DNA of 64,000 nt from NCBI GenBank assembly GCA_029339505.1, contig JAQISU010000345.1, positions 819,501 through 883,500 of the forward strand, in the 5' to 3' direction. Below are positions 3,250-7,687 of the stretch, one piece after another. This DNA is from Unio delphinus (Eukaryota; Mollusca; Bivalvia; Unionida; Unionidae). The translations under genes and the position numbers were made by a program. The notes below the pieces were generated by a model that saw nothing but the letters and a program-made list of their open reading frames with translations, was not told where the DNA came from and did no database searches. Within the stretch, counting starts at the first letter, position 1. Every line of letters starts with the position of its first letter.

Positions 3250-4203
3250 ATGGAATCTATTTATTATTCCCCAAGAGGATACTGGAGGGGTAAATCAGCA
3301 ATCCATAAACTCGCTAGCGCTGCGAAAGTGAAAAAAACCACTGCGGCTCATTGGTTATCCAAACAGGCACTATGGCAAATTTATCTACCACCGCCTAAAC
3401 AAATCAATTTCTCGCATTTTGATGTGACCGGACCCAATGAAGTTCATCAGGCTGATCTATTATTTCTGCCACATGATCGTGGTTACAAATACGCATTAAC
3501 CGTAGTTGATATTGCAAGTCGATACAAAGAAGCAGAACCGTTAAAAACAAAATCAGCCACTGAAGTGGCTTCTGCATTTGAAAGGATTTATCGAAGGAGT
3601 CCTCTGCACTGGCCAAATCTGTTACAAGTTGACCCGGGCAAGGAATTTCAGGGTGCAGTGTTATCTACAATGAAAAATCACAATGTCGCTATCAGACGAG
3701 GGCATACTGCACTGCATCGTGATCAGGCCATTGTAGAACGATTTAATAAAACCCTTGCTGAGCGGTTATTTGGATATCAATACGCAAAAGAATTCATCCA
3801 AGAAAAAAGATCCCGTGAATGGGTTAAAAGGTTACCAGCTGTGATTACTGCACTGAATAACGAGATTACTAGAACCATCAATATGAAACCTATCAATGCG
3901 ATTAAAAAGAAGTCAATACCTGAAATGGAAATTCAAAAAGATTTTAGCGTTTCCCAACCAATTCTTGGTAGTAATGTCATTGTGAGGTACTTATACGAAC
4001 CAGGAGAGCTTGAGGGTGGCACAAAAAGGGCTACTGATCCTATTTGGAGTGTTACTGCACATAAGATATCTAGTATAACACGATCTACGGGTAGACTTCC
4101 AATCTATAAACTGGATTCAACTGCCCCTCAACGGGGTTTTACTAGACAACAATTACAAGTGATACCTGAGGATACTCAATTACCACCACATGGGCTTAAC
4201 TAG
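3250..4203 (+). CDS. Retrovirus-like DDE integrase
   Basis: 317 residues. The catalytic triad reads as D69 (HQADLLFLP), D128 (LLQVDPGKEF) and E163 (DQAIVERFN), a D-D-35-E spacing with the rve-family context; TVVDIASRYKEAEPLKTK is typical of Polinton/adintovirus and Ty3-like integrases. An N-terminal helical region (about 15-50) takes the place of an evident HHCC finger. The C-terminal part (VRYLYEPGELEGG...PIWS) looks like the small beta-barrel DNA-binding domain. It would insert the element and make the 5-bp duplications seen here. It starts 7 bp after the PLA2 stop and its last 8 bp overlap, tail to tail, the replicase gene on the other strand. Confidence 0.95.
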   Translation: MESIYYSPRGYWRGKSAIHKLASAAKVKKTTAAHWLSKQALWQIYLPPPKQINFSHFDVTGPNEVHQADLLFLPHDRGYKYALTVVDIASRYKEAEPLKTKSATEVASAFERIYRRSPLHWPNLLQVDPGKEFQGAVLSTMKNHNVAIRRGHTALHRDQAIVERFNKTLAERLFGYQYAKEFIQEKRSREWVKRLPAVITALNNEITRTINMKPINAIKKKSIPEMEIQKDFSVSQPILGSNVIVRYLYEPGELEGGTKRATDPIWSVTAHKISSITRSTGRLPIYKLDSTAPQRGFTRQQLQVIPEDTQLPPHGLN

Positions 4204-7200: not shown

Positions 7201-7687
7201 TGGGTGCTAGTTTTGAAATATCAGGTTTTTCATTGAGCGGATATATCCCGTAAACAACTACTGTGACAGGATAAGATCTTTCGTAGTAGGGTTTATCAAG
7301 TCCAGTCAAAATTCCTGGTTTTGAATCCTGAGTCACAGTGACAGTTTTTTTGTCCTTAAGAATAGGCTCGTATTTGTCCCTAATGATCCATTTTCCATTA
7401 TCACGGATAAGGAATTTTATTCGAAAAAAATTTTTTTCTTCCCCAAGACGTGAGATTATCACTGCTGCTTTTTCATCATTCATGGTAGCGTCAACAACAC
7501 CATCAATTCGAAATGTTGACCAACAATGAGCTGCCCCATCACGCTTGAATTCATTAAAACAGTCTCTGATTTTACTAATCAAGGTTCTATCAAGAATTTT
7601 ATTCTTTGGTGTATCAGAAACTCTATCAAGATTGAATTGAACACTTTTCCAGGGCTTAATTTTCGATAATCTCTCGAACTCCTCCAT
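4196..7687 (-). CDS. Replicase: divergent PolB-like palm + SF1 helicase + C-terminal HNH nuclease
   Basis: 1163 residues. The N-terminal ~400 residues match nothing I can name. A PolB-like motif A is seen near residue 411 (SVDMIACYPGSF), a degenerate motif B near 565 (GRRIIGKFTQGG, where KxxxNSxYG is usual) and motif C near 664 (RVATDSFYI). I see no convincing 3'-5' exonuclease motifs. A superfamily-1 helicase follows: Walker A GCGGSGKTT near 740, WDEID near 811, GDHGQPPPF near 838, and late motifs GYAATIHSSQGLT and YLAVSRVR. The last ~55 residues are an HNH module (CASC, VDRKNNNLGH, CLECNRRKG). Classical Polintons encode a separate protein-primed PolB; one chain carrying all three activities is unusual. 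The helicase and HNH calls are strong; the polymerase call is inferred from motif order. Confidence 0.8.
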   Translation of the reverse strand: MEEFERLSKIKPWKSVQFNLDRVSDTPKNKILDRTLISKIRDCFNEFKRDGAAHCWSTFRIDGVVDATMNDEKAAVIISRLGEEKNFFRIKFLIRDNGKWIIRDKYEPILKDKKTVTVTQDSKPGILTGLDKPYYERSYPVTVVVYGIYPLNEKPDISKLAPMKYSTGLNCVATRIMEHFTNASRGNKLTDLRRKKITEWELTVKQHGATIQDIAKLETSLRFPISVRTITGEVLYKSKYKSQGAPIEIIDHNAHAWSSAVTIFPRDRTVKYLFGTEEFFSEQKLFDAIYHLSKNDSVSVWLFHSTSDEECRFDQFVRPNGELYRTEELHNQMKQLASEFSPQSSLGEDNDQLLANCFTLPSVVAHFARKKNAWKPTRSEFLSDVKLSCLEYSHGGLWNTKYTADTVISVDMIACYPGSFLGYGECEKYFKRFGHPTHEMTRVAINGPLPHFDLTGFACVVSFEMAEGLHPCSYLWIGKHMSEKHWMPIVLLRYMLDCKMLKSLIVSEAIISYRAQKSVWLPQPDLEKIISEERKLFPDFNEQQIMDWSRQLFEIRNNEAKDLGRRIIGKFTQGGKDDNTRYSSRLIIDNAEYDFVIKDLTNRGLYVNRKDAFMSDGTKLGTIVTYTDGYHQQYTYLRASMLGYASINLFSMINRFPTTAVRVATDSFYINSKMADFKATGNENWGSWRIKKEMLHDYIPSADVTIENNYLESNQCSEFSSAPPISDPICRYKTVYLNGCGGSGKTTRAIELYRRNASVSNPNMIVLTPTHRLAREMKQRGVNACTYHSFFRWKGDKWTPERMGEKFIPEIIMWDEIDTVSEDVLKIFLEWLLLKNTKVVMCGDHGQPPPFVGASPHEWLKGFVDYYEEIDTDHRSLDNELKEFKKLIRLQPDRIQCEIAREIISETPMNEFWEAWRPNDLIIASRKIVRDTLQMKLFELHKQKFATLPVPLCYRPSDTRKQNIEVDIPGPKSEGFQRQILVLNDIVLVDINVVEDALRANKSPWTLGYAATIHSSQGLTISDTTVWMVDNRIEWSNLVYLAVSRVRKINQLRRIVLTESGDDEIIGDHNDTTIDDIIDKKLSGYKQQDKKKQREFDIDAELIITLKQQQNNHCASCNCIMRWQYSDKDPRQFTVDRKNNNLGHIRNNVMLTCLECNRRKGAS

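Follow-up and report, generated by a model that had tools for sequence, protein, structure and literature searches.

A probable pPolB-S1H replicase with a C-terminal HNH domain in a virus-like mobile element of Unio delphinus

The window analysed here is a stretch of 64,000 nucleotides from Unio delphinus (assembly GCA_029339505.1, contig JAQISU010000345.1, positions 819,501 to 883,500). It contains a virus-like mobile element of 16,446 bp, element 1, bounded by terminal inverted repeats that are 99% complementary, and within it the gene of a large fused replicase, designated P0001. With considerable confidence, P0001 is best explained as the replicase of the described pPolB-S1H (Tlr1-like helicase) family of polinton-like viruses, in which a protein-primed family B DNA polymerase (pPolB) is joined to a superfamily 1 (SF1) helicase. 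The replicase is real, intact and probably recently active. A preceding sequence-only reading had proposed an element with Polinton-kind capsid genes and integrase, driven by a different replication engine whose polymerase may be a new branch. The first part of that proposal stands, as an integrase and capsid genes were found; the second does not, because the order terminal protein (TP)-vOTU-PALM-S1H with a C-terminal HNH domain is that of the described pPolB-S1H fusion (PMC11071308). The engine is therefore already known, and it is its host range that is unusual.

Architecture of the replicase and comparison with described systems

The replicase gene lies on the minus strand at positions 4196–7687 including the stop codon (4199–7687 without it), and is a single intact frame of 1163 amino acids. 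The PolB motifs A, B and C, previously read in that order in one frame of this length, are borne out by their residue positions: SVDMIACYPGSF at 409–420, GRRIIGKF at 564–571 and ATDSFYI at 664–670. The SF1 helicase that had been read in the same frame was recovered by Pfam (AAA_19, 1.3e-11; AAA_30, 4.2e-10) and by predicted structure, both of which place it C-terminal to the palm. Neither the seven Pfam families listed for P0001 (E≤10) nor the 25 that were listed across 24 members of the family (E≤1) include one of DNA polymerases, and PDB sequence and profile searches with the replicase returned helicases and the HNH enzyme PacI (E 0.29), and no polymerase.

The polymerase is instead apparent in the predicted structure of the full-length protein (mean predicted local distance difference test score 78.9). 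A structure prediction had been proposed for residues 380–700; in the model, residues 265–705 (positions 5573–6895), which span that region, match phi29 DNA polymerase and cover its residues 52–496. Residues 721–1057 (4517–5527) match RecD2/Pif1 helicases and are assigned to an SF1B helicase. In the viral structure database BFVD, the best match of the model was entry H6WBE3 (E 9.0e-27, 1081 columns), and the PolB of mavirus was fifth (E 2.5e-12). A palm of the TV-Pol or primase type, neither of which was compared by name, is not favoured, because the predicted palm matches phi29 polymerase.

Two putative N-terminal domains had been overlooked in the sequence-only reading. Residues 49–153 (7229–7543) are modelled as a little-finger/PAD-like fold, a predicted terminal-protein (priming) domain in which Tyr139 is the candidate linking residue, and residues 165–256 (6920–7195) as a predicted viral OTU cysteine protease (Cys171, His252/His255). 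Among the matches listed for the N-terminal model, 19 of 50 were Y-family little fingers and 23 of 50 OTU proteases, and three of its top four matches in BFVD, with E values from 4.0e-4 to 3.1e-3, were the pPolBs of a MELD virus, a densovirus and mavirus. It must be weighed against this identification that both folds are drawn from weak structural matches: the two groups were separated only in the VIA comparison, at low Z, and Foldseek found no match of the N-terminal model in the PDB at E≤0.001. The OTU-like region and the palm lie so close together that scant room is left for an exonuclease domain; on the other hand, the match to phi29 polymerase starts at residue 52 of that enzyme, which we take to lie within its exonuclease region.

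The element shares with Polintons/Mavericks and adintoviruses a double jelly-roll capsid protein, an A32-type packaging ATPase, a probable protease, an RVE integrase and terminal inverted repeats. Polintons make target duplications of 6 bp, and those found here are of 5 bp. Unlike the stand-alone pPolB of Polintons and adintoviruses, moreover, the replicase carries a helicase and a nuclease fused in frame, and no full exonuclease was recognised in it; a classical stand-alone pPolB was accordingly rejected. That such a pPolB had been joined to neighbouring genes by misassembly would agree with the Polinton-kind integrase, ATPase and capsid genes, but it is refuted by the recurrence of the fused frame in all 40 scored genomic copies and in database relatives, 26 of 69 of which span 96% or more of the query, and we accord it next to no probability.

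In the published account, proteins of the order TP-vOTU-PALM-S1H with a C-terminal GIY-YIG or HNH domain are the Tlr1-like helicases, 'better' named pPolB-S1H fusions; they occur in polinton-like viruses and transpovirons, and active polymerases are predicted for them (PMC11071308). The replicase resembles that of Tlr1, an element of Tetrahymena, in a domain at the terminal-protein position, a putative vOTU, a palm apparently without exonuclease, an SF1 helicase and a C-terminal GIY-YIG/HNH position, in that order, and the element resembles Tlr1 in its RVE integrase. It appears to differ from Tlr1 in its middle N-terminal domain, which weakly matches the little-finger fold. That fold has been published for terminal proteins of the PRD1 type; a PRD1-like priming domain is carried by TvV-S1, not by Tlr1 (PMC11071308). 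It is thus suggested, from the model, that the N-terminal fold is of the presumed ancestral PRD1-like (TvV-S1) kind. Further differences from the described pPolB-S1H proteins are the HNH domain kept through the family, the divergent motif B, and the relatives in animals and mycorrhizal fungi. No sequence named Tlr1, TvV-S1 or transpoviron was among the matches returned by the replicase searches.

Other described systems were found to be less similar. PMC12721341 restates the pPolB-S1H fusion and adds one of opposite order, the Helicase SF1-pPolB of OmPLV from Oxyrrhis marina. Like P0001, that protein combines an SF1 helicase and a pPolB in a single chain; it differs in its order, in its full exonuclease, and in the tyrosine recombinase that takes the place of the RVE integrase. 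An OmPLV-type order was rejected for P0001, as its helicase is located after the palm. The pPolB of mavirus has the TP-vOTU-PALM arrangement without most of the exonuclease (PMC11071308), which is the arrangement predicted for P0001, in addition to the structural match given above; its published layout has no fused SF1 helicase or HNH domain. Cryptophyte elements encode SF1 helicases with a C-terminal GIY-YIG domain, as well as helicases with an N-terminal HNH domain (PMC12220804).

Conservation of the palm and of the HNH domain

Conservation was determined in a 44-row alignment of P0001 with 43 of its 69 relatives, the 26 left out being mostly shorter. The motif-A residue Asp411, Lys570 of motif B and the motif-C residue Asp666 are present in all 44 rows, and Tyr416 in 40. 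The previous observation that motif B lacks its usual Asn and Tyr was confirmed: the Asn place is occupied by Cys in 33 of 43 rows and by Arg in ten, and the Tyr place by Ile in 43 of 44. The G, K and F of the motif are retained in 43, 44 and 42 of 44 rows, respectively, and four places ahead of the Asn place a basic residue is found (Arg in 34 of 43 rows, Lys in six). These places are presumed to correspond to those of motif B in phi29. In motif C, Ala stands in for the first Asp of the DTD in 43 of the 44 rows. Residues 540–559 (window positions 6011–6070), ahead of motif B, form a stretch present in just four to five of the 44 family rows.

The losses in motif B and at the first motif-C Asp could indicate that the PolB part is an inactive scaffold, the protein serving as a helicase-nuclease alongside a polymerase of the host. 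A 2016 paper that named the fusion reportedly called this class of palm inactivated. However, Asp411 and Asp666 are invariant and Tyr416 nearly so, and mean pairwise identity is nearly equal in the palm and the helicase (0.643 vs 0.653). The authors of that paper have since made the case that the first Asp can be lost without harm, as it is missing from active PolBs (PMC11071308). A dead palm is for these reasons considered improbable, and the predicted DNA polymerase activity of the palm is likely.

The HNH module of the sequence-only reading was recovered at the C-terminus of P0001 (residues 1099–1163, positions 4199–4393), with two CxxC pairs. Its best profile match was the PHROG endonuclease VII family (phrog_1035, 8.4e-9, residues 1087–1162); Pfam HNH gave just 0.11, and NCBIfam no nuclease for P0001 and three relatives. 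The endonuclease VII profile was matched by 19 of 24 family members (best 1.5e-15). Where the rows of the alignment extend this far, the zinc-binding Cys pairs, Asp1136, His1144 and Asn1148 are kept in 39 of 39 or 40 of 40. The HNH motif is present in 30 of 31 proteins of at least 1100 amino acids, the exception being P0047, and in 47 of 71 proteins overall. Nineteen of the 24 proteins without it also lack the pattern of helicase motif VI; the other five (P0005, P0007, P0047, P0048 and P0066) extend 34 to 127 residues beyond that motif, and all of them except P0005 could be devoid of an HNH domain or carry a diverged one.

C-terminal GIY-YIG and HNH parts of Tlr1-like helicases have been viewed as homing endonucleases (PMC11071308). 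By that view the HNH domain would have invaded the gene and would have no role in replication; the free-standing HNH_3/NUMOD1 genes within the same window would agree with this, as would the 96 to 127 residues without an HNH pattern that follow motif VI in P0007, P0047, P0048 and P0066. Its near-constant presence in the long proteins, the invariance of its diagnostic residues, the endonuclease VII profile and a mean pairwise identity of 0.672, on a par with that of the helicase (vOTU, 0.603; priming domain, 0.499), speak against an invader, which we regard as unlikely, though somewhat less so than a dead palm. Conservation at the level of the helicase, together with the matches to endonuclease VII profiles, suggests that the domain is a fixed part of the replicase. 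Its profile name and conservation would point to action on branched DNA.

Copies, insertions and neighbouring elements

Genomic copies of the replicase were sought in all 2,505,324,503 bases (~2.5 Gb, 1246 contigs) of the assembly. At least 40 full-length copies, of 98–100% identity, were found; copy figures rest on the 40 best-scoring matches and are a lower bound. No internal stop was present in 37 of the 40, and the start codon was replaced by ATT in one. Pairwise divergence ranged from 0.11 to 1.55% (mean 0.79%), and 17 diagnostic residues were kept in every copy. The pooled ratio of the proportions of nonsynonymous and synonymous changes (pN/pS, uncorrected) was 0.216, a value biased downwards by the choice of best-scoring copies; it was 0.217 for changes common to at least two copies and 0.511 for private changes, both drawn from the same set. 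It is apparent that amino acid changes are depleted among the copies, and the pattern fits copies that were spread by a functional replicase and then decayed where they had inserted.

Twelve insertions were examined at their ends, namely elements 1 and 2 and ten further copies. Both ends were resolved in nine, and an exact 5 bp target duplication was present in all nine; seven of these were among the ten further copies, each at a different site. In the remaining three the right end could not be placed: C57 gave no match there, that of C183 was truncated where the stretch ended, and C314 gave only fragments in opposite orientation.

In element 1, the left terminal inverted repeat (1858–2079, plus strand) starts with AGCAGCAG and is 99% complementary to the right repeat (18082–18303, minus strand); the target duplication GGATT flanks them at 1853–1857 and 18304–18308. 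A packaging ATPase (Pox_A32, 1.2e-11) is encoded at 2036–2707 on the minus strand. On the plus strand are the RVE-type integrase (3250–4203; Pfam rve 1.4e-7 at 32.2 bits, the cut-off being 32.6), the capsid protein gene (12747–14210; PF21738, 1e-17; 23 relatives) and a likely adenovirus-type maturation protease (14716–15270; PF00770, 0.0029, below cut-off). Pfam thus found the integrase and capsid genes anticipated earlier, the former 0.4 bits under its cut-off; a PDB sequence search with the capsid protein was without match.

Element 1 has inserted into an older element of its own kind (1–1857 plus 18304–24848), whose flanks, 1590–1857 and 18304–18471, match adjoining parts of element 1 and overlap by the 5 bp GGATT. 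The right repeat end of the older element is recognisable at 24833–24848. Element 2 (33666–48745) has its own repeats, TATTC at both sides, and a broken replicase gene on the minus strand (36003–39560). The homologous broken copy with all three parts, previously placed at 35985–39560, was confirmed as three pieces in two frames: 39560–38643 (residues 1–273), 38620–37874 (279–531) and 37880–36003 (530–1163). All three parts are covered, at 69–73% identity, and the helicase piece terminates in a stop codon at 36330.

Elsewhere in the window, minisatellite arrays were observed between elements at 30199–31287, 32092–32980, 51243–52503 and 53160–54377, with units of 49, 29, 50 and 43 bp, respectively, in 22 to 31 copies. 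A further capsid module occupies 54624–63986 on the minus strand, a stretch with no replicase match. A free-standing HNH_3/NUMOD1 homing-type gene was found at 39998–40495 (plus strand) and a similar frame at 63378–63869 (minus strand), to which element 1 has a short match alone (window positions 7982–8140, 79%).

Relatives, proposed mechanism and implications

The protein search returned 69 relatives at E≤1e-3, 26 of them spanning 96% or more of the replicase at 36–71% identity, which is beyond what chance would give. Relatives are named from Elysia crispata, Diversispora, Cetraspora, Ambispora, Racocetra, Gigaspora and Rhizophagus, and one is in a bin named Candidatus Thiodiazotropha. A profile search returned six proteins, one of them new beyond the 69, and yielded a relative on a 143-Mb contig of Sinanodonta woodiana; a capsid relative (70% identity over 61% of the query) was found on a 165-Mb Sinanodonta contig. 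A quick tree built from 71 proteins groups P0001 with P0002–P0005 and the Sinanodonta protein P0071, a long, half-filled branch whose placement is unsure. Scans of viral contigs gave no match for P0001 or the ATPase, and for A1 one helicase-only relative (L009, 25% identity). No report of the fusion in molluscs or other animals was found in the literature searched, from which subscription papers were largely missing.

It is likely that a single protein primes, copies and unwinds the DNA of this virus-like mobile element. Synthesis would begin at the terminal repeat, where a tyrosine of the N-terminal domain, for which Tyr139 is the best candidate, would accept the first nucleotide; the palm would extend the primed end by strand displacement, with help from the RecD2/Pif1-like helicase of the same chain. 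Once primed, the terminal protein may be released through cleavage by the OTU-like domain, branched or joined intermediates may be trimmed by the endonuclease VII-like HNH domain, and the RVE integrase would insert the linear copy with a 5 bp target duplication. It is proposed, tentatively and as a possibility short of an even chance, that a self-sufficient replicase of five activities (primer, protease, polymerase, helicase and a fixed, resolving endonuclease VII-type domain) has very recently flooded the large genome of a eukaryote, probably an animal, and that the element may still move.

Replicases of this fused type were already described from elements of protists and plasmids of giant viruses, and the relatives reported here extend the group well beyond protists. 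What is new is the setting, a capsid- and integrase-bearing element with at least 40 near-identical copies in a 2.5-Gb eukaryotic genome, together with relatives in mussel (on chromosome-scale contigs), sea-slug and mycorrhizal-fungus assemblies. The wide conservation of the endonuclease VII-like HNH domain argues for a part of the replication machine, contrary to its published interpretation as a homing insert. The young, low-divergence set of copies provides a basis for biochemical tests of protein-primed replication and of the role of the HNH domain.
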